Assembly (NCBI GenBank): GCA_029834535.1
Contig: JAQMWT010000050.1
Coordinates: 93,501-157,500 of the forward strand
DNA from: Chrysophaeum taylorii
Taxonomy: Eukaryota; Sar; Pelagophyceae; Pelagomonadales; Pelagomonadaceae
Length of the DNA stretch: 64,000 bases
Reading direction: 5' to 3'
In this document: in pieces, positions 4,605-41,836 of the stretch
Numbering within the stretch: position 1 is the stretch's first letter
Layout: each line of letters opens with the position of its first letter
Program-made: the position numbers and the translations under genes
The notes under the pieces: model-generated
What the model saw: the letters and a program-made list of their open reading frames with translations, nothing else
What the model was told of the DNA's origin: nothing
The model's database searches: none

Positions 4605-5581
4605 CTAACTAACCAACCTGGGCTCATACTGCTGCCGTTAGATTCTTTCAAGTTGCTTCCCACGAGTGCGCGAGCTCGCACGCAAACAGCAGAAGTGCCT
4701 CGCTGGCTGGCTGGCTGTTTCGCTTTTTTTTACATTTCATCTCCCGCGGTGATGTCCTTTCTACTGGCGATGCGCGCGAAAACTAAACTGTGAAGTTCGC
4801 GTGAATAACAACTCTTTTTTTATTCACCAGAGTGACACGATCGCGATCTCTCGAGGAGTGGTAGCACGCAATTTATTTTTTTTGCGCCGCCCTTCTTCGA
4901 TCGTCCTTGGCAAGCGTCGTCGTCACCCCTCTTTCACCAACGCGCGGTCAATAATATCACTATGTATAATGGCGTGAAGACGACTTCCGAGTTCCTCTAA
5001 TAATCGCGTTCAAGGGTGTACTTCCGACCACGGACTGATTTGATTGCCTACTCCTCCTCCTCCGTCTCGGTGAACTGCAGTCTGGTCGGTGAACTACCTG
5101 CAGTCTGGTCGGTGAACTACCTGCAGTCTGGTCGGTGAACTACAATCTGGGCGGCTCACCTTGGGACTTTTTTCATTCGACGATCTCTTGCCTGCGGAAC
5201 TCCCCTGCCGACCTCGACTTGGCTGAGTTGGCTCTGCGGCCCGACGAGGCGTCGAGGGATTGTTTGCCAGCAGACCGGCATGTTGTTCGCTCCTGACGCA
5301 GCTTCGGGATGGGACTTTCGACTCGACATGGCCATTGCCAACAAACAACCTGGGGAGCGCTTCACTGCTCTATGGGAGAGCTGGGACAGCGCCTCTCGCG
5401 AGACTAGGGCTGGACTGGACCGTCGCAAGACACACTTTCCTCGTTGGATGAACCCCATGATCTTCAACTCAAGGGACATTGATACTCCCCAATCGAAAAT
5501 TTAAATGTACGTAGAATCCGTCCTCGTAATTGCTACATACCGAAGCGGTGCTCATCAGAGTAATAATTGTGCTCTCACACA
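4605..5581. other. Intergenic with 23-bp tandem repeats
   Basis: No confident gene. At about 5078-5145 a 23-bp unit (CTGCAGTCTGGTCGGTGAAC plus TAC) is repeated about three times. An open frame at 5280..5504 (74 aa, ATG start) has no recognisable domain and could be chance or a remnant. T-rich tracts occur at 4726-4735, 4813-4822 and 4871-4881. Confidence 0.55.
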
Positions 5582-7359
5582 ATGTTCCAAACCTCGGCGC
5601 TGGTGGCCGACGTCGAGGTGCGACTCGCAGAGAGGCGCGTTCACAGCGTGCGCAGGATCAAAAGGAAGAAGATCTCGAGCTCGTTTGGCGCGACGTGAGA
5701 TTCGAGGTGCCCGGGAAGGTTATTCTCGACAACTTATGGGGCTCAGCGTCTGCGGGTCGCGTGACGGCGATCATGGGGCCTTCTGGGTGTGGGAAAACGA
5801 CGCTCCTCGATTTCCTCGCGCAGCGGATTGACACGAAGAAGCGCGGTCGCTCGGTGAGCGGGTCGATAACCCTTGTTGGCGCCAAGGCGCGTGCCGCGTA
5901 CGTGCAACAGGAGGATGCGCTGGTGGGCGTCCTGACGGTCGCCGAGACGCTCGCGGTAGCAGCGGCGTTCGCGGGGGCACCAAGATCGAGAGCGGACGAG
6001 TTGGTGCGGGAGTTTGGGCTCGAGAGCGCGAAAGATACCATGGTTGGCACAATCTTCCAAAAGGGTATCAGCGGTGGCCAGAAGAGGCGTCTCTCGATCG
6101 CGGTGGAACTAGTCGCGCGACCGCGACTCGTGCTGCTCGACGAGCCTACCTCGGGCCTCGACTCGGCGTCTGCACTCGCCGTCATCACCCAGCTCTCGCA
6201 GATCGCCGGTGCCATTGATCAGTGCAAGGAATGCAAGCGCGTCGCTGTCGCGTGCACGCTCCACCAGCCGTCCAACGCAGTCTGGGCGCTCGTGGACCGC
6301 GTCTGCTTCCTCGCCGCGGGCAAGCTCGTGTATTTCGGGGGTACCCAAGCTGAACTGCTGGACTTCTTCAATCGCTGCGAACACCCCGTCCCACAATACG
6401 CCAACGTCGCCGACTACGTGTTGTCCCTCATCAACCAGGACTTCCCGGGACACGCCGACGTCGACAAGATCGTCGCAGCCTTCGCGTTCGACCCGCCCGA
6501 GGTGCCACCACAACTCGTGGTTCCCGACGTCACTCCGCCGCGCGCCGGTGGTTTCTCGCGCTTTATCACGCTCTGCGGGCGCGGCTTCAAAGAACTCTCC
6601 CGTGATGTGGGCATCATCGGCGTCCGCCTCGCGATGTACACCATGCTCTCCGCGTTGATCGCGATCGAGTACCTCAACCTCGGAGACAAGAAGGGCGACA
6701 CCGACGTCAATGCACGCGTCTCAGTCTTGTTTTATGTCCATGCATTCCTGGTGTTTATGTCGGTCGCGGTACTCCCTTTTTACATCATTCAGCGCGCCGT
6801 GTTCATCAAAGAACGGTGCAATGGCGCCTACGGCGTCCCGGAGTACGTCGCTGCCAAGTTCGTCGTTGCCTTGCCCGGTGTCTTTCTCATCGCTATCGTC
6901 TCGAGCGTCTTGGTCGTCTTCCCGGCCAAGCTCAACGGCTTCCCAATCTACTTCCTCGACCTCTTTGTCTCTTTGCTCATCGCAGAAAGCTTCATGGCAT
7001 TCATCGCGGCCATCGTCCCTCACTTCATTGTCGGCATCGCCCTCGCCGCCGGCATCTTTGGTTTCAACATGCTCGTCGAGGGATTCTTCCTATTCAAGCA
7101 CGACATCCCCGTGTATCTCATCTGGGGCTACTACTACGCTTTCCACACGTACACCTTCCGAGTCTTCATGCACAACGAGTTTAATCCCATCAACGACTTC
7201 AACGGCCCCCAATTCCGAGACGGCAAACAAGTGCTCCGCTTCTACGACATGGGCAATGTGAACGTCACGCACGATTTTGCCGTCCTCATCGCGTGGATCG
7301 TCTTCTTCCAAATTTGCTACACGATGGTGCTGTACTTCTACCATACTGGACGCCGTTAG
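5582..7359 (+). CDS. ABCG-family half-transporter, copy 1
   Basis: Predicted exons 5582..5617 and 5656..7359 (579 aa). The transporter frame has no in-frame ATG before its Walker A motif. A 12-codon exon starting with ATG joins it in phase through a 38-nt GT..AG intron, and the second copy has the same arrangement. The order is NBD then TMD, typical of ABCG/White half-transporters: Walker A GPSGCGKTT (residues 53-61), signature GISGGQKRR, Walker B LVLLDEPTSGLD, H-loop TLHQP, then a C-terminal ABC2 membrane domain with about six hydrophobic spans. Half-transporters dimerise and export lipids, sterols or pigments; the substrate here is unknown. It is the upstream member of a ~3.35 kb tandem duplication. 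Confidence 0.88.
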
Positions 7360-8944
7360 TCTGCAGTTACAGATCATCTCGCTTTATGTGTTGCTTCAAC
7401 GGCCCGTGTATCCTCTTTGCGTGCATTACCGATCAAGTTCTTATGGTGCGGCTTGCCACAACAGGCTGACAAACCGCGGGATTGCTATTTTCGTCAATCT
7501 ATGGTCAGACTTTCCGTGGTTATAAGAGTCCAGCAACACTCAAGCCAGACGCCAAGTCAGACTCGAGCCAGATCAGCCTCAAGCGAGACTTCGGGTCAGA
7601 CTCCATGCAGGCACCTGACTGAAATTGTTAAATCACCCGCGAATCCAGTTCGGATGTCGACCAGTTCACTAAGGAGCAATCTGGTGTGGCATATTTTTTG
7701 CCATTGCAGATCAGACGTGCTGATGTTTTTTACCCTGGCCGTACTCTTGAGTGGCAGCAGCATCTTTTGACCTCGTATTTACGTTCGTGTTTGCTCTGCG
7801 TTCGTGACCGTGTCCTTTCTGATGAAGATGCGTTCACCATTCCAGACTCGTAGGACTGGCCGGTTTTGCAGCTATCTCTTCGCTCTGTGTCCCCCGCGCA
7901 TAATTGACGGTCTGCCTCCCTGTCGGTTCCGCCGCCTACGTGTTCGTGTCGGACAGCTTGCCCGCGAGGCTTGTTGCCGAGCTCCTTGCCGCTGATGCAG
8001 ATTCAAATAATATGTGGTTCAACGTGTGGTCGCTGCTTTCGCCCATCTGGCGCGGGATGAATTACTTGTGCTCCGTACGGACAGGGTGGCTTCGCGCTCC
8101 TTCTCCCCCCGATTGCTCCTGCTACTTTTCTCGGCACATCTTCTGTTCTACCCCCATGTATAATTTTGTAACCTAAACTAGCCGCGACTCGACGCGACTC
8201 TCTAAGCCTATGGCTGGGCTGCATCGTCGCCGAAGTGGAGTGATGAACGGCAATTTGACTAAACTACCAAACTAGGCATCATACAAGTCTTCGACCCTAC
8301 CTTCGCTTTGTGGGATCGTACGCACTCATGGTAGTCTTTTGCTGTTCCATTTAAGATTTCGCATCTATGGCAGCCTTGTGAAGTTGCATTCAGATCATGT
8401 TCTTGCCCGCACCCATGTTAGCCGAAGGCTGCTGCTTTTCAGATTCCGCATCCAATGGCGGCATGGTGCTGTAGCAAAACAAACTGTGTTTTTGTGCGCA
8501 CAGCAGGCATCCTTGTGCTGTGGCACTTCAGATCACGCATCCTCGAAAGCTTGTGCGATGGCACTTCAATTTACCCACAAGCCGCGCTGCGAAAGACAGC
8601 ATGATCATAGCGCTACCATCATTATCGCAGTCTCGTTGAATCCTGTTAAAATGCAGCGCTGGGATATTACCACCCACATGGAGGAAACAGTCGCTAGACT
8701 GCCGTCAACACGAGCGGCAGCACGATTCGACAGTTCGAGAATCATGTGACAATTTTTTAACGAGGCGCACAACGCCGCCGACACCTGACCTGACTCTCAC
8801 GGCAGGAAACTCGGACGCTCGTTCGTCGCAATGTTCTGGATGGCTCTAAAGTCTGGGACAACTGAACTATGTATGGACAGAGTATCTCTCTTTTACCACA
8901 ACCGTTCGTTTTGCATACATACTGAACATCTCACAACATCGGCA
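7360..8944. other. Spacer between tandem ABCG genes
   Basis: 1.6 kb with no supported gene. Around 8340-8580 a degenerate ~85-bp motif recurs about three times (versions of CAGATTYCGCATC..ATGGC). The last part must contain the promoter of ABCG copy 2. It is lower in GC than the flanking coding sequence. Confidence 0.55.
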
Positions 8945-10707
8945 ATGTACGACGAGGACGCCGAGGTACGGCTCGCAGAGAGGCGCGTTCACAGCGTGCG
9001 CAGGATCAAAAGGAAGAAGATCTCGAGCTCGTTTGGCGCGACGTGAGATTCGAGGTGCCCGGGAAGGTTATTCTCGACAACTTATGGGGCTCAGCGTCTG
9101 CGGGTCGCGTGACGGCGATCATGGGGCCTTCTGGGTGTGGGAAAACGACGCTCCTCGATTTCCTCGCGCAGCGGATTGACACGAAGAAGCGCGGTCGCTC
9201 GGTGAGCGGGTCGATAACCCTTGTTGGCGCCAAGGCGCGTGCCGCGTACGTGCAACAGGAGGATGCGCTGGTGGGCGTCCTGACGGTCGCCGAGACGCTC
9301 GCGGTAGCAGCGGCGTTCGCGGGGGCACCAAGATCGAGAGCGGACGAGTTGGTGCGGGAGTTTGGGCTCGAGAGCGCGAAAGATACCATGGTTGGCACAA
9401 TCTTCCAAAAGGGTATCAGCGGTGGCCAGAAGAGGCGTCTCTCGATCGCTGTGGAACTTGTCGCGCGACCGCGACTCGTGCTGCTCGACGAGCCTACCTC
9501 GGGCCTCGACTCGGCGTCTGCACTCGCCGTCATCACCCAGCTCTCGCAGATCGCCGGTGCCATTGATCAGTGCAAGGAATGCAAGCGCGTCGCTGTCGCG
9601 TGCACGCTCCACCAGCCGTCCAACGCAGTCTGGGCGCTCGTGGACCGCGTCTGCTTCCTCGCCGCGGGCAAGCTCGTGTATTTCGGGGGTACCCAAGCTG
9701 AACTGCTGGACTTCTTCAATCGCTGCGAACACCCCGTCCCACAATACGCCAACGTCGCCGACTACGTGTTGTCCCTCATCAACCAGGACTTCCCGGGACA
9801 CGCCGACGTCGACGAGATCGTCGCAGCCTTCGCGTTCGACCCGCCCGAGGTGCCACCACAACTCGTGGTTCCCGACGTCACTCCGCCGCGCGCCGGTGGT
9901 TTCTCGCGCTTTATCACGCTCTGCGGGCGCGGCTTCAAAGAACTCTCCCGTGATGTGGGCATCATCGGCGTCCGCCTCGCGATGTACACCATGCTCTCCG
10001 CGTTGATCGCACTCATGTTTCTCGACCTCGGAGACAAGAAGGGCGACACCGACGTCAATGCACGCGTCTCAGTCTTGTTTTATGTCGCAGCATTCATGGT
10101 GTTCATGTCGGTCGCGGTGCTCCCTTTTTACGTCATTCAGCGCGCCGTGTTCGTAAAGGAACGGTGCAACGGCGCCTACGACGTCCCGGAATATGTCGCC
10201 GCCAAGTTCGTTGTCGCCTTACCCGGTGTCTTTCTCATTGCTATCGTCTCGAGCGTCTTAATTGTCTTCCCGGCCAAACTCAACGGCTTCCCAGTCTACT
10301 TCCTCGACCTCTTTGTCTCGTTGCTCGTCGCAGAAAGCTTCATGGCTTTCGTCGCGGCCATCGTCCCCCACTTCATTGTCGGCATCGCCCTCGCCGCCGG
10401 CATCTTTGGTTTCAACATGCTCGTCGAGGGATTCTTCCGAGTCAAGCACGACATCCCGGTGTATCTCATCTGGGGCTATTACTACGCTTTCCACACGTAC
10501 ACCTTCCGAGTTTTCATGCACAACGAGTTTAACCCCATCAGCAAGTTCAACGGCCCCCAATTCCGCGACGGCAAACAAGTGCTCCGCTTCTACGACATGG
10601 GCAATGTGAACGTCACGCACGATTTTGCCGTCCTCATCGCGTGGATCGTCTTCTTCCAAATTTGCTACACGATGGTGCTGTACTTCTACCATACTGGACG
10701 CCGCTAG
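8945..10707 (+). CDS. ABCG-family half-transporter, copy 2
   Basis: Predicted exons 8945..8965 and 9004..10707 (574 aa). Exon 1 encodes only MYDEDAE and joins in phase through a 38-nt GT..AG intron nearly identical to that of copy 1. The nucleotide-binding domain is almost identical at DNA level to copy 1. Differences cluster in the membrane domain (for example LMFLDLG versus IEYLNLG, AAFMVFM versus HAFLVFM, FRVKHD versus FLFKHD, ISKFNG versus INDFNG). All ATPase motifs are intact. The two genes differ in N-terminal exon and upstream DNA, so they may be expressed differently. Confidence 0.88.
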
Positions 10708-14855: not shown

Positions 14856-14919
14856 CACCTTTTGACCCCCCTCCCCCTATTCTCATTACTTCTGGCGGAC
14901 TACTACTACGATGTCTGTC

Positions 14920-15058
14920 TTTAAATGTCGACTGCTAAGAGGGGGGGGTGTGTGTGGGGAGCATGAAGGATGCGGGTGGGTTTGTGGGGTAGGAGGGATG
15001 TGCCTGACGGGCGGAGATAAGTACGCGGGACCTAGTCGGGGTCATCGCCGAGGCGTGG
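14920..15058 (-). mobile_element. 5'-truncated LINE copy in front of ROK kinase
   Basis: About 139 bp matching the 3' end of the LINE at 16266-18931: shared GTCGACTGCTAAGAGGGG, CATGAAGGATG, TAGGAGGGATGTGCCTGACG and GGTCATCGCCGAG. On the minus strand it ends TTTAAA. It is flanked by near-perfect 10-bp direct repeats GATGTCTG(T/C)C at 14910-14919 and 15060-15069, interpreted as a target-site duplication. The right copy contains the ATG of the ROK gene. Confidence 0.75.
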
Positions 15059-15060
15059 GG

Positions 15061-16041
15061 ATGTCTGCCTCCTCCTACTACTACTACCTAGGGCTCGACC
15101 TCGGTGCGACGAACGCCAAGGCGGCCGTCGTTGGCGGGAGCGGCGATGTGGTCGGGTTCACGCAGCTCGCGTTGAACGATGAGGTGTGCACGTCGTCGAC
15201 GCTGGCACCAGAGACGGTCGTGGCGCGGTTGGTCGAGTGCGCCGACCTCGCACTCGCGACGGCCTACGTCGAGTGGACCGAGGTGCACGGCGTCGGCGTC
15301 GGAACCCCGGGAGCAGTCGAGGACGGGGTGGTTATCGCGGCGGCGAACCTGTTCGCGGGTCACTCGCGCGTGCCCTTGCGAAAGTTGCTGGCCGAGGCGA
15401 TCGCCGCCAAGCGCGGCGGCGACTCTGTGTCGATTTGCCTGGTCAACGACGCCGACGCGGCCCTCCTCGCCGAGCTTTGGATCGGCGCGGCGCGCAGCCG
15501 AGGAAACGTGGCCATGCTGACGCTCGGCTCTGGGATCGGCTGCGCGGCCGCTTTGGAGGGCCGCGTCCTCCGCGGTGCTCTGGAAGGCGGCCACATGATC
15601 GTCAACAGCGCCGAAAACGCGCGTTCGTGTACTTGCGGTAGCAGGGGCTGCCTCGAGGCCTACGCGTCGGCCAACTCGATCGTCCGAATGTACGAGGAGG
15701 CCGGTGGTCCCAGCCGAACGTGCGAGGCTATTTTTGAACTCGCTCGAGACGGCCGAGACAAACGCGCTAGTCAGGTCGTCGACGTCGCGATGCGTCACGT
15801 CGCTCTCGGCGCGATCAACCTTATCCGCATTCTCGATCCCGCCCTCGTCGTCCTCGCCGGGGGCGTCGTTGCCGGCGGAACCGTCTTTCTTTCGAGGCTG
15901 AGAGATACCATGGATTCCCTCGACTGGACCTGCCTCCCCCGCCGCTCCGACCGCGTCGTCCTCGCCGCCGCCGGCCTTGTCACCGGCTGCGTCGGCGCCG
16001 CTAAAGCGGCCCTCGACCACACCACTCCTCCTGTGCGATGA
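15061..16041 (+). CDS. ROK-family sugar kinase
   Basis: 326 aa from ATG 15061. The N-terminal phosphate motif is LGLDLGATNAKAAVV. Next come GVGVGTPGAVEDG, the catalytic-region LVNDADAALLAELWIGAA, GSGIGCAAALEGRVLRGA, EGGHMIV and the ROK zinc-binding signature CTCGSRGCLE, then LVVLAGGVVAGG. ROK kinases phosphorylate glucose, mannose, N-acetylmannosamine or related sugars; the substrate cannot be read. The family is mainly bacterial, so ancient transfer is possible. The frame is also open upstream to a second ATG at 14911 through 50 LINE-derived codons, giving an alternative start. Stop is TGA. Confidence 0.88.
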   Translation: MSASSYYYYLGLDLGATNAKAAVVGGSGDVVGFTQLALNDEVCTSSTLAPETVVARLVECADLALATAYVEWTEVHGVGVGTPGAVEDGVVIAAANLFAGHSRVPLRKLLAEAIAAKRGGDSVSICLVNDADAALLAELWIGAARSRGNVAMLTLGSGIGCAAALEGRVLRGALEGGHMIVNSAENARSCTCGSRGCLEAYASANSIVRMYEEAGGPSRTCEAIFELARDGRDKRASQVVDVAMRHVALGAINLIRILDPALVVLAGGVVAGGTVFLSRLRDTMDSLDWTCLPRRSDRVVLAAAGLVTGCVGAAKAALDHTTPPVR

Positions 16042-16099: not shown

Positions 16100-18931
<2,832 letters not shown>

Positions 18932-18971
18932 CTTTAAAGGTCGACTGCTAAGAGGGGGGTGTGTGGGTGGC
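18932..18971 (-). mobile_element. Very short LINE 3'-end fragment
   Basis: About 40 bp of the LINE 3' terminus (GTCGACTGCTAAGAGGGGGG) directly abuts the 5' end of the larger LINE. The larger element appears to have inserted at the GACAGAC junction of this earlier copy. Confidence 0.6.
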
Positions 18972-19550
18972 GCACGGCGACCTCGCAGACTATTTCCACG
19001 ACCCGCGGCGGCTCTTTTAGCCAGCGCGCCATTCTCACGCCCCGTCGAAACGATGTCGTCGATGCTGACAACGCGCGCATGACCGCGGCCTTTTTTTCCC
19101 GGAGACGAGGCGTCGGAGTTCTTTTCGGCCGACTAGGTTGGGTCGGAAGACGACGCCTCGCTCTCAAGAGTCGAGTTTTGAACTCCCTGACAACCAACGG
19201 CATGCTGACTTTGATCGCGAGCTTAAAGTCTTCGCAATCTCGACCCGTTGCATGGCCACTGCAACGGTACCAGATACATGATCGATCGTGTCCTGTCACC
19301 GAGGCTCCTCCAACCTGTATCCCTCAAGCCCCACCGACGCCAAACGATCAACAAGAGCCAGAGGCAGACGCCCCGCAAGGTCGGCGTCCTCTTGCCCAAG
19401 CCTGTCTTCTGCCACGTCCAGCTCTACGTGGCTCTCTGTCGATCGGCAACCCCGAGGATATCCTCTTCTGAGTCGACGACTCCACCCTAACCCACACGTG
19501 CTGCGCAATACCGATAAGCACCCTCCCGGCGTCTACACGCGCACGGTAGG
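18972..19550 (+). pseudogene. Pif1/Helitron-type helicase C-terminus, decayed
   Basis: Fragments in several frames match the C-terminal part of Pif1-like helicases as in Helitron Rep/Hel proteins: GDLADYFHDPRRLF, (N/D)DVVDADNARM, NSLTTNGML, CNGTRYMIDRVLSPRLLQ, and the motif VI region TINKSQ..TPRKVGVLLPKPVF followed by QLYVALCR. Frameshifts and stops interrupt it, and the usual VALSR is changed to VALCR. It lacks the N-terminal ATPase motifs. The same segment is tandemly repeated at 61.7-64 kb. Confidence 0.8.
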
Positions 19551-19826
19551 TGAACTTACTGGGACCTGGTGAACTTACTGGGACCAGGTGAACATACTGG
19601 GGTTTTCAGAGTAAAGTTTTTAGAGTAAACTCAAAGGTTGGCGGCGCGTGCGGATCAAAGCAGCTTAGATTGGCGGAGGCGAGAGCGACGAGCTCGAAGG
19701 AGTGGGTGTGAGCTAGGTGAACTTACTGACCAGGTGAACTTATATGAAACTTACTGGGATTAGGTGAACTTACTGGGGTTAGAGATTGGGACTAGGTGAA
19801 CTTACTGGCCTGCACTTGTCTCGTTT
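19546..19826 (+). repeat. GTGAACTTACTGGGAC minisatellite
   Basis: Irregular copies of GTGAACTTACTGGGAC(C/T)AG surround a ~90-bp conserved block (GCGTGCGGATCAAAGCAGC, then TTAGATTGGCGGAGGCGAG). It ends GGCCTGCACTTGT. The identical arrangement, inverted, forms part of each unit at 61353-64000, so this is the downstream half of one dispersed unit. Confidence 0.85.
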
Positions 19827-19993: not shown

Positions 19994-21459
19994 ATGACTT
20001 CATGGATTCGCTGGCGGCGGGTGATCGAGAAAGTCGCCGACGCGTGAGCATTTCCTTGGTGCGTCGCTGACCAGAACGTCGCAGGCGACGGCAACGGCGC
20101 GGTTACACGGCGCACGAACTGGCGCAGCTCAACAGCAACCTCTTAGAACTCGAGAAAAAATGGAAGCAGTCGCTCAAGTTCAAGGTGCGGCGAATCCTGT
20201 GGATCATGGCCAACGATTCGCGCGAAGAGAAAGTGCCTTCGCTGGGGGTTCGCCACGACGCGGCGGTGACGTCGACGACGACGACGATTCAGACGTTTCC
20301 AAATATGCTAGAGAGGAATCGAGTCTTGCCCACTCTCTTAAAAACGCTCCACTACTTGAGCTCTAAAGAGACCTTGTCGCTCGGCGATGCGGTGACCTGC
20401 TTGTTCGCGGGGACCGTCATCAAGACCCTCCTCAACATCCCCGGCGGACTTTCGATCCTGCTCTCCGCGTCGCGCGAGCGCCTCGCCTTTCGCGAGATGT
20501 GCGTCTCGGCGCTCCGGTGCCGCGTACCCCTCTTCACAACTCGAATCCTCGAGCTCCTGGCAGCTCTCGTGCTGCTGCCGGAGGAATTGGAGGGCTACAG
20601 GATGGCCCGGAGCGTCCTACGCGAAGTAGACAAAATCGCCAGCTCCTGGGGCGTCCGCGTCTGCGCCCGCACCCCGCTGACGCCGACCGCGGAGGCGCGG
20701 TCGAACGCGCCGCCGCCGGCGTTTTCGGCCCTCGCGCAGCTGCTCGTCGAAAGCACGAACGAGCTGCGCGTCGCCGTGGTGGTCCTCTTCACGGCGCTTT
20801 GCAACTCGGTCCAACGAGGCCAGGGTCGCCGCGCGGCCCTCTGGCTTCAGGTGCAGATTTTCCACGCGATTCGCGTGGTGGTGCCAGCGAGCGACAAGGA
20901 AAAAAAAAAAAAAACTCGTGCGCATGCGGCGCGCCGCCGACGATCGTCTCCGTCTGCCCTGCGCCGCGTCAACACCGTCTCCACGATAACCACCGACGCG
21001 AACGACGACGAAGTCTGCGAAGTCGCCTCGGTCAACGACGCGGATTACGATGCGCGGGGCACCCTGTGCCAGCCACTCGTGGACTTGCTCGACGAGTGCG
21101 AGACGAGCTCCAGCGTAAGCTCCAAGCTGCTCAAGCACACCCTCGAGCGGTTCCTCGACGGCTGGGACGCGCGCGAGCTCAACGAGGCAGAGGACTGTGA
21201 CGCGGAGATCATTGGCTCGGTAGTGCGGGTGGAGATCTTGACGAGCCGGATCCGCCGAGCGGCCCTGCTCTTGGCGCACGCCGACGTCGACGCCGTGCTC
21301 GATGTCTTGGGCCGCGAGCTCGAGCTCGCCAGCGCGAAGCCCGTCCGCCGCGACGGCGGCGATGACGTGCCGCTCAGCCTGGATATGCATTCGACGCTGA
21401 CTGCGCTTAACCGCCTTCAATCCAAGAACGTCCGGCTTGTGCGTCGGCTTCACGAATGA
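19994..21459 (+). CDS. FH3-only partial formin paralog
   Basis: Predicted exons 19994..20043 and 20085..21459 (474 aa), with a 41-nt GT..AG intron at the same position and phase as intron 3 of the neighbouring formin. It parallels the formin from the end of its third exon (EKVADA, RRYTAHELAQLN) through the armadillo-like FH3 region (NRVLPTLLKTLHYLS, LAGTVIKTLLN, ELLAALVLLPEE, RFLDGWDARELNEAEDC). It then stops at a TGA right after LTALNRLQSKN, where the full gene continues to FH2. The frame is intact, so it may be a functional regulatory fragment, but the first ATG is a guess and a truncated pseudogene is possible. Confidence 0.6.
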
Positions 21460-22277: not shown

Positions 22278-25200
22278 ATGCCAACAACACGCGGGCGGAG
22301 GTGGTCTCCTGTTGAAGGCAAGATCGATTGGACGTGCGAACTCTACGTGTACAAGCACTTCGGGTGGGTGGCTCGCGAACTGTGAGCATACATTAAGTAA
22401 CTTGGTGGTTTCGTTCGCAGTCTCAAGATATTGGGTGGAAAGTGGGTGTCAGTTCGTGCGAGTTTTCAGGGGCCGCGTATCTACCTGCAGTCGACGGGCA
22501 AAGAAAAATATGAAAAGACGATCCACATCACGCGGAAGACAAGCATCGAAGCCGCGCCTCAGCCCGGGCGGTTCGTCGTCGCGATCAACGGGTTCAACGG
22601 GACGCTCAAGACGAGACGGCTCCTCGATTGTAAGACGCAGGAGCAGCTGGATCAAGTAAAGAAGCACGTGAACGAGGCTATTGCGCTCGGCAACGACAAG
22701 CCGGCAATCGTCTCTTCAGGTAGGTGCTCCTCGAGGCTGTCACGACTCGATTGACTCGCGCCCGCTTCAGGACGCCACATGAAGGACAATCGACCTCATG
22801 CCTACACGAGCCCTGTCGTGCTGGAGCAGGACAACGAAGAAGCCGAGGACATTCGACCCCAGGAATGGCGCGTGAGCGAGGTTGGGGCGACGAATCTGCA
22901 TCGGGTGATGGCGCAAGTCACCAAGGAGGTGGCCGACGCGTGAGCTCTCTATGCGTCATCTCTCGTTTCGCGAGACGTCTTACCGCAGGCGACGGCGACG
23001 ACGCGGGTATACGGCGCACGAGTTAGCGCAGCTCAATAGCGAATTGCTCGAGCTCGAAAAACAATCCAAAAAGACGCTCAAGTTCAAAGTCCGTCGGATC
23101 CTGCGTCTCATGGCAAAGGAGGGGAAAGACGCGCGGAACTCGGTGTCGACGATCGACGAGAGGGGCTCGATGATTGGGGGACGTGCCTTCAGAGCTTTCA
23201 GCCAGCACGCGCGGCAGCACGGGATGACGCTGGGTGCGTCATCGTCGCATCATGACTCGCAGAACTTGGCAAACTCGTCGATTGTGGAGACGCTGCCGAG
23301 CCTGCTCGAAAAGAACCGCGTGCTCCCGACTCTCGTGACGACGCTTCACTACTTGAGCCGCAAGGAGAAGCTGACGCTCCACGACGCCGTGACCTGCCTG
23401 TTCACGGGGACCGTCATCAAGACCCTCCTGAACATTACGGGTGGGCTTTCGATCCTGCTTTCGCTGCCACGCGAGCGCCACGCCTTCCGCAAGCTGTGCG
23501 TCTCGGCGCTTCAGTGCCGCGTGCCCGTTTTCACGATCCGAATCCTCGAGCTCCTGGCCGCCCTCGTGCTCCTGCCAGACAATGTCGAGGGCTATAGGAT
23601 GGCACGAAGCGTACTGCGGGAGGTGGACAAAAACGCTAGCTGGGGTCACTGCCTCTGCGCCAGCACCCCGCTGACGCCGACCGCGGAGGCGCGGTCGAAC
23701 GAGCAACCGCCGCCGTTTTCGGCGCTCGCGCAGCTGCTCATCGACGGCACCAACGAGCTCCGCGTCGCCGTGATGTCGCTCTTTACGGCGCTCTGCAACT
23801 CGCTTCACCAGAACCAGGGTCGCGAGTCGGCCCTCTGGCTTCAGGTGCAGATATTTCACGCGATTCGCGTCGTGGTGCCGATTCGAACGAGGGAGAGCGA
23901 AAGCGGCTCGCAGGGACCACGGAAACGACGAGCTTCGTCGTCAGCCCTGCGCCGGGCCGGTGCCCCGGGCATGACCGTCGCCGACAGCAAGGAAGACGAC
24001 ACCTCTGAAGCCGCGTCCATCGACGACTCGGAGGAGAAACAAGGTACCCTGTGCCAGCCGCTCATCGATTTGCTCGACGAATGCGAGACATCTCCGAGCG
24101 ATAGCTCCAAGCTGCTCAAGCACACCCTCGAGCGGTTCCTCGACAGCTGGGACGCGCGCGAGCTCGACGAGGCGGAAGACTGCGAAAATGAAATCGTTGG
24201 CTCGGCGATGCGGGTAGAGATCCTGGCCAGCCGAATTCGGCGGGCGGCGCTGCTGCTCGCTCACGCCGACGTCGACGGCATGCTCGACGTCCTCGGCCAC
24301 GAGCTCGAGCTCGCGAGCGCGAAGCCCATCTGCCGCGACGGCGGCGACGACATACCGTTGAGCCTGGACGTGCACTCGACGGTGACTGCGCTCTACCGCC
24401 TTCAATCCAAGGACGGGAATCGCGGCGCGGCGCCGCGGCCCGCGGGCGTCGGGCCCCTCAAAGGCATTACGGGCACCAAGAACGCGCTCAACGACATGCT
24501 TCGAAAGACGCGCCCGTCGTTTCCTTCGGCACCCGACGACAAAAAAGCTGCTGCTGCTGCCCCTGCTGCGGCGGCGGGTCCGGTGGCGCTCAAGGACGAC
24601 CCGACGTACGCCAAGTTTTTTAAGATGATTCGCATGCACGTACCCAAGACTGCGGTCGCGCTCAAGATGTCTGCCGAGGGTCTCGACCCCGCAATCCTCG
24701 ACATGAACGTTAACGAGCCCGCGCCCGAGGCAAAGCCAGCGACGAAGATGATGGAAGAGAGGGCGCTCGAGGACGACCCGACGTACGCCAAGTATTTCAA
24801 GATGCTTCGGATGCACGTTCCCAAAGAAGCCGTCATCAACAAGATGACGACGGACGGGCTCGACCCGTCGGTGCTCGCGCTGGACCCCGACGGACCGGTT
24901 CCGTCGACGAGTACCAAGCCCAAAAAGCCCCCCCCGCCATTGGCGCGCGGCCCGCCTCTCGAGGACGATCCTAAGTATGCCAAATTTTTTAAGATGCTCA
25001 AGCTCCACGTCCCCAAGATGGCGGTGGCGGCCAAGATGGCGGCCGAGAACCTCGACGCCGCCGTTCTTGACCTCGATCCGGAGAAACCAATGCCGGTGGA
25101 CCGCGTGGCCGGCGGCGCCGGGGCAGCGGCGGCGGCGAAAAGTCTCGACGTCGCGGAGAAGCCGGCGGGGCCGCCGGTTTATTGCGCGCACGCGCCCACG

Positions 25201-26793
25201 GCCAAGGTGCGCAAGGTGTTTTTGGATCTCATCACCGATGGCTCGGGGACTTGGTGGGTGCCAGACGGCGAGGACGAGAGCGCGAAGCGGAAAAAAAAGC
25301 AGCAGCAGCAGCAGCAGCAGCACCGTCGAGAAGACGTGGTGGTGCTCGAGGACGGCGCTCTCAAAGATCTCGAGTCGGTGTTCTTGGTGCCGCCGCGGAG
25401 GGGCAAGCTCGCGAACGAGGATGCAAAGGCGGCGGCGGTGGCGGCCGTGAGCGACATGCAGCAGAGCGAGCTCGAGGCGCTGACGAAGAAAAAAAAAAAG
25501 AAGGAGATGCGGTCGCCGGTAACCGAGGCGTGCGGCGGGAAGAGGAGTTTCGAGCTGAGCGTCCTCTTTCCGGGGCTCAAGATACCAACCCCCGAGCTCG
25601 CCGGCGCGCTGGCATTGTTGGATCCCGATGCCAAGCTCGCCGCCAACCCGACGTCCCTCTCGATCCTCTACGACATGCTCCTGCGCAAGCTCCAGCGCGA
25701 GGAGGTCGAAAAGTTGTCGCGCCTCGTCTCGCGACACCCCGCGAACGAGGACGTGCTGCTCGACGACGTCTCGCTTTTCTTCGCTCAGTTGCTCCGGGTG
25801 GTGCGGCGGCCGCGCGAGAAGGTGGTCTTCCTCTGGTTTCGCACGACGCTCGAGGACCGCTTCAACGAGCTCGCCGCGCACGTCGAGGCCTTCGAGCGCG
25901 CGGCCGTCAGCGTTCGCGACTCCGAGGCGCTCAAGAAGCTCCTACGGTTTACGCTCGCCATCTCGAACTTTCTCAACTTTGGCACGGCGCGCGCGAACGT
26001 TCCCGGCATCAAGATCTCGTCGCTTCTCAAGCTGCGCGAGACCAAGACGACCAAGACCGACAACTACAAGAACCTTCTCGCCTACACGGCCAAGCACGCG
26101 GGCGTCGAGCCCAAAGACCTCCGTGCCGAGCTGCCGGAGGACCTCCTGAGTGCGGTCTACCTCAGCCCCCCGCGGTCCGACTTGAAGCGTCTCATCGTCG
26201 AACTCAAAACCGAGTGCGACCAGGCCGCGAGGGAGCAGCACGCGCTCTCCGAGGACGCCGATCGCGCCGACCTCGCGGCCGATGCCATGCACGCGGCTGC
26301 CGCCAGGGCCGACGATTTCGCCACCAAAGCCAAGGACGCCCTCACGCGCCTCGACAAGCTCTACGTGGCCATGGAGGAGACGGTCGACAAGACTTTGGCG
26401 CTCTACGGCGAGCCGCCGACGATCGACGCCGAGGACTGGGTCAAGGATATCGACCGGTTCTGCGCCCAGTACGAGACCGAGCACAAGGAGCTCACCGACG
26501 CCATCGCTCGGAAGCGAAAGCGCGAGGCTCTCGAAAAGAAACGCGCGCTCCGCGAGTCGGAGTGCCAAGCGATGCATAAGAGCCACCTCCACGACGACGC
26601 CAAAAAAGTCACGGCCAGGGGCCAGGTCAACAGGATCATGACCGACATCGCCTCGGGCGCCGCCCTCGAGAGTCAGGGGGGAGGCATGTCGATGAAAGAT
26701 CACGCCGACAGTTGGGCCAAGAAGCTTCGCGCCCACCACAAAAGCCACGACGACGACGACGCCGACGACGACGAGTTCGACTTTGAAGACTAG
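22278..26793 (+). CDS. Formin with PH-like, FH3, triple DDPxYAKFFKM repeats and FH2
   Basis: Predicted exons 22278..22381, 22421..22719, 22771..22939 and 22989..26793 (1458 aa); introns are 39, 51 and 49 nt, all GT..AG and in phase. The N-terminal ~110 residues look PH-like (GKIDWTCELYVYKHFGW, RIYLQSTGKEKYEKTIHI, GRFVVAINGF). An FH3/armadillo region follows. At residues ~725-880 come three copies of DDPxYAKxFKMxxxHVPK..V..KM...GLDP, a motif shared with WASH-subunit CCDC53-like segments. FH2 spans ~920-1260, including FLNFGTARANVPGIKISSLLKLRETK. An acidic C-terminal tail ends the protein. It nucleates unbranched actin. There is no long polyproline FH1; the Lys/Gln-rich insert in FH2 is unusual. 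Confidence 0.88.
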
Positions 26794-41619: not shown

Positions 41620-41749
41620 CAGGTGCTGGAAAAGAAAGAAAAGGGAAAAAGGGGGTAAGTGAGGTCCTCACACAGGTGCTGGAAAAGAAAGAAAAGGAAA
41701 AAGGGGTAAGTGAGACGCTCACAGAGGAGAAGCTTTGAGGAAGACGTCA

Positions 41750-41780
41750 CACACACCCCCCTCTTAGCAGTCGACATTTA
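41750..41780 (+). mobile_element. 31-bp LINE 3'-end fragment with 9-bp target duplication
   Basis: The LINE terminus (CCCCCCTCTTAGCAGTCGAC, then ATTTA) is inserted between two copies of AAGACGTCA (41741-41749 and 41781-41789), within the 3' part of the Copia element. It is extremely 5'-truncated but flanked by a perfect direct repeat. Confidence 0.7.
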
Positions 41781-41836
41781 AAGACGTCAATAGAGGCATT
41801 GTGGCAAGAAAGAAACAACAGAGATCAGGGCGAATA

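Follow-up and report, generated by a model that had tools for sequence, protein, structure and literature searches.

The window analysed here is a 64-kb stretch of DNA that contains a SHIPPO-repeat ORF, Copia-like and LINE coding stretches, the latter two recognised from the sequence, and an ROK-family sugar kinase gene; tRNA or Rfam features were not found in it. The SHIPPO-repeat ORF and the Copia-like and LINE stretches mark the genome as eukaryotic. A first-pass annotation had claimed that a 5'-truncated LINE copy of about 140 bp lies between short flanking repeats at the start of the kinase gene, that the right repeat copy is the gene start, that the left copy provides a second ATG at 14911, and that the 150 bp between the two ATGs are in frame and free of stops. 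All of this was borne out. The features at the locus are:

14856..14910, + strand: 55-bp gap from the stop of the upstream SHIPPO-repeat ORF to the left ATG, free of ATG
14910..14917, + strand: left copy of the target-site duplication, GATGTCTG, carrying the upstream ATG at 14911 in its native 5' context TACG-ATG
14911..15060, + strand: potential N-terminal extension of 50 residues, mostly LINE-coded, MSVFKCRLLRGGGVCGEHEGCGWVCGVGGMCLTGGDKYAGPSRGHRRGVG; open frame
14918..15060, - strand: 5'-truncated LINE copy, antisense to the kinase, with a short 3' UTR and the last LINE ORF codons; identified by genome matches and 19-mer tails
14974..14997, + strand: G-quadruplex-type motif GGGTGGGTTTGTGGGGTAGGAGGG from a pattern scan, LINE-borne, between both ATGs on the mRNA-sense strand
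15060..15067, + strand: right copy of the duplication, GATGTCTG, its first G ambiguous with the LINE, carrying the original kinase ATG at 15061; site unique
15061..16041, + strand: single-copy gene of 326 codons for a ROK-family sugar kinase, stop-free

The kinase frame is intact and retains the ROK sugar-kinase and zinc motifs (DLGAT, LVNDADAA, EGGH and CTCGSRGCLE). PF00480 matches residues 59-367 of the 376-aa form that starts at the left ATG (E 2.2e-37, 129.6 bits, cut-off 22.9). The two best solved relatives are glucokinases, the first being 2qm1 (E 3.4e-28), and both align from residue 10 of the 326-aa form that starts at 15061; the short form is therefore a complete ROK protein and the further 50 residues are an addition. 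The 326-aa form enters the ROK domain at about residue 9-10, which makes 15061 the likely ancestral start. The curated glucokinase cut-off of TIGR00744 was missed widely (101.7 versus 260.35 bits). In its own genome the kinase protein has a single match, and protein and start site each occur once in the assembly, in which no allele representing the empty site was seen; a search of a genome-contig collection with the kinase protein confirmed no relative among 19 pattern stretches.

The truncated LINE copy and its flanking repeat

Both sides of the insert carry the identical 8-bp repeat GATGTCTG (14910-14917 and 15060-15067), and a coordinate check within the window placed GATGTCTGTC at 14910 and GATGTCTGCC at 15060. 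The G at 15060 could equally belong to the LINE, so that the duplication comprises 7 or 8 bp; the LINE-specific stretch measures 142-143 bp, and the insertion adds a net 150 bp, that is 50 codons without a stop between the ATGs at 14911 and 15061. Frame 0 is the sole open one among the three forward frames of the insert. The kinase left flank CTACTACGATGTCTG occurs once genome-wide and is therefore regarded as host DNA, and the kinase start site GATGTCTGCCTCCTCCTACTAC was likewise found only once in the genome when up to two mismatches were allowed.

In the genome searched (70.8 Mb, 697 contigs), positions 14912-15060 have at least 58 matches including the stretch itself, with 40 of the 1,880 candidates scored. 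The 19-mer at the LINE tail, TCTTTAAATGTCGACTGCT, occurs exactly 2,251 times, its reversed control not at all. The first-pass annotation had named the same ~140 bp lacking any LINE match elsewhere as an objection to its reading; this does not hold, matches being plentiful. Chance resemblance or an assembly artefact has a practically negligible probability: the site is known from a single assembly, but the insert matches at least 38 other places at 99% over 148-151 bp, its junctions are clean at both ends and its flanks are unique. The copies share the 3' end in many genomic places, as is the case for 5'-truncated LINE insertions, and their 5' truncation varies from 17 bp (L069) to 1,528 bp (L025) of the comparison copy L024, ends near 2,487 bp, where the LINE sequence of L024 stops, being left out of this range.

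Compared with the parent element in L055, which has a stop-to-stop frame of 1,396 codons on the strand opposite to that of the kinase, the insert consists of the last codons of this frame plus a short 3' UTR; the antisense of the LINE stop codon lies at 15032-15034. The middle part of the L055 frame matched RVT_1 with E 0.0026 and 18 bits, below the curated cut-off of 29.6, and had no PDB match up to E 10, and the whole frame matched no Pfam family up to E 1. At residue 1190 the frame contains a PD-x(n)-D-x-K string, which we take to resemble restriction-like endonucleases; a CCHC pattern did not match the frame and no Pfam endonuclease was found in it. Pfam and PDB together gave the LINE no firm place in a clade.

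When 50 distinct copies, each of at least 140 bp, were compared with the kinase copy, a single private base emerged, a C at 14973 where all 50 have T; the extension-frame codon is then TGC in place of TGT and encodes Cys either way. Because only this one base is private, the insertion looks recent; its divergence is too small for testing selection on the extension. Position 14992 is polymorphic and decides whether an antisense reading of the LINE 3' end meets TGA in the extension frame: the kinase copy has G, as do 20 of the 50 compared copies, whereas T, present in 29 (C in one), would turn extension codon 28 into TGA. If cut at the same point as the kinase insert, 17 of the 50 copies would likewise stay open in frame, so it did not take much luck for the frame to be open, and selection need not be invoked on this evidence; the open frame would seem to be luck in part.

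Landing sites of the LINE and the origin of the left ATG

The LINE lies mostly in (TTTG/TCTG)n microsatellite with the core TGTCTG. At least two TYTG units adjoin the tail in 59 of the 83 distinct tail junctions read, at most one in the other 24. Exact TGTCTG tails (n = 784) are preceded by C or T in 737 cases and by A or G in 47, this count being the weaker sign of a microsatellite since L027, L028 and L035 share the C/T without one. The kinase start, ATGTCTG, includes the core and looks like an off-target site. As the LINE mostly sits in (TTTG/TCTG)n, TGTCTG beside its tail is expected and by itself weak evidence of a duplication.

One could read the left TGTCTG as LINE tail and the left ATG as a host A (or GA) followed by a LINE TG, in which case the target site would have been duplicated hardly or not at all. 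Tails in microsatellites do read TGTCTG before TCTTTAAATG, which leaves the (G)A of the left copy as the only wholly LINE-independent evidence of duplication, and 9 of the 21 ATGTCTG-tail junctions, all of which were read, showed no TGTCTG-containing direct repeat of 8 bp or more. We nevertheless regard this reading as very unlikely: the (G)A is common to both flanks of the kinase insert, and at other insertions outside microsatellites the repeats are longer, taking in TGTCTG and extending past it. Direct repeats of 8-18 bp including TGTCTG flank 12 of the 21 junctions, kinase included, a raw count in which up to six bases of each repeat may be LINE. Examples are CGGATGTCTG in L056, GGAGGATCAATGTCTG in L062, GTCAGTATGTCTGT in L063, GACCCTATGTCTG in L066 and TACCTGATGTCTGT in L071; further non-microsatellite insertions with repeats are those in L025 (ATCACTGTCTG), L027 (CACTGTCTG), L028 (GGATCACTGTCTG) and L035 (GGATTTGTTGTCTG). 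The 12 junctions are not all independent, L059 and L060 having the same inner flanks and the two rows of L061 being nested in one chain, and part of the ATGTCTG sites lie within other repeats or LINE copies. Duplications including TGTCTG are thus common for this LINE, with the kinase case at the short end, and the flanking repeat at the kinase is best read as a target-site duplication.

Two further assignments were considered and dropped. TCCTAACTACTAATCGACAGATG had been a candidate for the 3' end of the LINE itself; as the microsatellite followed by TCCCTCGATTTAGGG recurs on the far side of many copies, we assign it to the margin of another repeat, one in which the microsatellite is contained. 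A motif ending in GACAGATG, or a near-identical one, is present in 41 of the 83 distinct tail junctions, and the left ATG of the kinase might have been such LINE or repeat-edge sequence. This is unlikely, given that the motif ATG is followed by TTTG in 40 of the 41 cases (the first motif of L043, ATCTTTC, is the exception) and never directly by TCTG, and that the left flank is unique.

A repeat of about 1 kb (L014, L015, L020, L011 and others), multi-copy in several loci, often serves the LINE as a landing site. Its order is the edge TCCTAACTACTAATCGACAGATG, then (TTTG/TCTG)n, then TCCCTCGATTTAGGGTAAGG, and it includes TTTAGGG; Rfam families were not detected at threshold in L014 and L015. Short LINE 3' ends also form chains of the same orientation (L020:367-660, L033, L019:364-833 and L072:330-860), as would result from repeated targeting of one and the same site or of the LINE's own tail.

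Probable insertion at the start codon and possible translation from either ATG

We consider it probable that a LINE preferring (TTTG/TCTG)n hit an off-target site where the ROK kinase gene begins and duplicated the start codon. Before insertion the empty site would have read CTACTACTACGATGTCTGCCTCC. The top strand would have been nicked after GATGTCTG, and the TGTCTG end thus exposed could have annealed to CAGACA close to the 3' end of the LINE RNA and served as primer for reverse transcription. This would have broken off after about 142 nt, giving rise to the 5' truncation, and a second nick 8 bp away would have led to the duplication of GATGTCTG, start codon included. Downstream second-strand cleavage resulting in a duplication, and incomplete reverse transcription resulting in 5' truncation, belong to target-primed reverse transcription as outlined in the review PMC2881922; the same steps would account for both traits at the kinase, the difference being that the duplicated 8 bp happen to hold a start codon.

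With respect to its target, the LINE is reminiscent of the (TG)n-specific Togen families and some HERO families, which PMC4640811 describes as microsatellite-targeting non-LTR retrotransposons. The likeness is one of target preference, namely a strong one for a simple repeat, the RVT_1 match of the parent element in L055 lying below the curated cut-off. In contrast to what is stated there for Togen and HERO, this LINE targets (TTTG/TCTG)n with the core TGTCTG, and copies are also present at single TGTCTG sites outside microsatellites.

The left ATG keeps the native leader (TACG-ATG), while the right ATG keeps the whole coding sequence. On the predicted translation the 326-aa frame is intact whatever the frame of the insert, and the predicted extension is in frame, open and joined to the host ORF; since the insert has no stop in this frame, reading of the gene can begin at the left or the right ATG. 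The 55 bp that separate the upstream ORF from 14911 are free of further ATGs, and ribosomes coming from the old leader would meet 14911 first. CG precedes the ATG at 14911 and not that at 15061, and also precedes 4 of 9 other starts in the window, a small sample picked by eye. As the likeliest outcome, with roughly even prospects, translation of transcripts that start upstream may begin at this first AUG (14911) and lead to a 376-aa kinase with a LINE-coded N-terminus of 50 aa, accompanied by some leaky initiation at 15061.

The same insertion could have had another outcome, in which the gene is translated from 15061, no extension arises and the LINE contributes nothing but new leader or promoter DNA. 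This concerns the consequence and not the origin of the insertion, and we hold it to be possible, though on balance doubtful. Several traits of the insert, which is G-rich, could hinder synthesis of the long form and would appear to speak against easy translation, namely the out-of-frame ATGs at 14925, 14963 and 14970, the G-quadruplex-type motif and extensive predicted folding (-97.9 kcal/mol over 265 nt versus -20.5 for the joined flanks, which with 115 nt differ in length). Motifs of the quadruplex type number five on the + strand and four on the - strand of the 64 kb, and a quadruplex-aware fold chose ordinary pairing and not a quadruplex; any G-quadruplex effect would be presumptive. Against the new-leader outcome stands the fact that the first AUG past the old intergenic leader is the in-frame one at 14911 in its native context.

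A crippled gene, from which too little correct product is made and whose locus is decaying, is unlikely. The G-rich insert and the disrupted leader are consistent with it, as is another repeat with a second LINE that begins less than 100 bp past the stop codon, but the kinase frame and its motifs are intact. Because the insertion looks recent, the intact frame is a weak argument against decay.

Possible start-codon duplication beyond the kinase

At the 21 ATGTCTG junctions, the frames opened by the left ATG comprise 376 codons at the kinase and 102 and 62 codons in the next longest cases, 440-588 bp downstream of the left ATG having been read at the other 20. In L061 the right-hand ATG opens a frame that runs off the stretch and, followed into L072, proves to be an ORF of 275 codons (L072:860-1687), the first ATG of which (GCATGTCTGTCC) lies directly after a chain of LINE pieces. 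The frames opened by the left ATGs in this chain end after 17 and 25 codons. With 150 matches, many of them containing stops and most of the long ones beginning after residue 2, the ORF is a member of a repeat family; it has no Pfam family above cut-off, and a search allowing up to two mismatches found its start site only once, so that there is no empty paralogue of it. As an ORF of a repeat family with left ATGs that soon meet stops, it was not counted as a clear second hit on a start codon, and we see no clear sign of a general preference of the LINE for start codons.

Starts of the type ATG-TCT-G, perhaps common, might in combination with duplications of at least 8 bp make start-codon duplication systematic, with an intact CDS preserved and a transposon-coded isoform added upstream; the kinase would then have become a two-start gene recently, with a long form that is located or regulated in a new way, and the chain in L072 might be another instance, though a non-readable one. 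This broader reading is distinctly unlikely. The kinase case suggests a rule, namely that the core TGTCTG and a duplication of at least 7 bp would together give a duplicated start at genes that begin with ATG-TCT-G.

The kinase locus presents, at base resolution, a case in which a retrotransposon strikes a gene at its most sensitive point and yet leaves it readable, the reason being that the duplication consists of the very start codon. It is a curiosity whose mechanism is clean; the event is of an ordinary type and no new system. Transposon-derived starts as such are already known: according to PMC2685007, an AluJo gives an alternative translation start beside a MIR promoter in a p75TNFR isoform, and NAIP transcripts begin in antisense Alus. 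These cases resemble ours in that a retrotransposon in the 5' part of a gene may supply a new start or N-terminus. Compared with what is reported there, the putative new start of the kinase is a copy of its own start codon obtained via target-site duplication. Among open-licence papers we found no title or abstract opening on a start codon duplicated in this way; it may be in print elsewhere.

Several other features of the window deserve mention. A second, older LINE copy (16110-19820), about 95% identical to the comparison copies and with a TCTG-type tract of about 130 bp, sits within another repeat that starts about 70 bp past the kinase stop with CTACTAATCGGCAGATGTTTG; the kinase gene is thus bracketed by two LINE copies in the same orientation. 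A LINE 3' end of about 38 bp (41748-41785) lies between TGACGTC copies just past a Copia-like ORF, as an insertion at a site without TGTCTG. Tandem ORFs recognised by eye comprise two nearly identical ABC-transporter-like copies (5530-7359 and 8926-10707) and a shorter (20071-21459) and a longer (22909-26793) formin-like copy.
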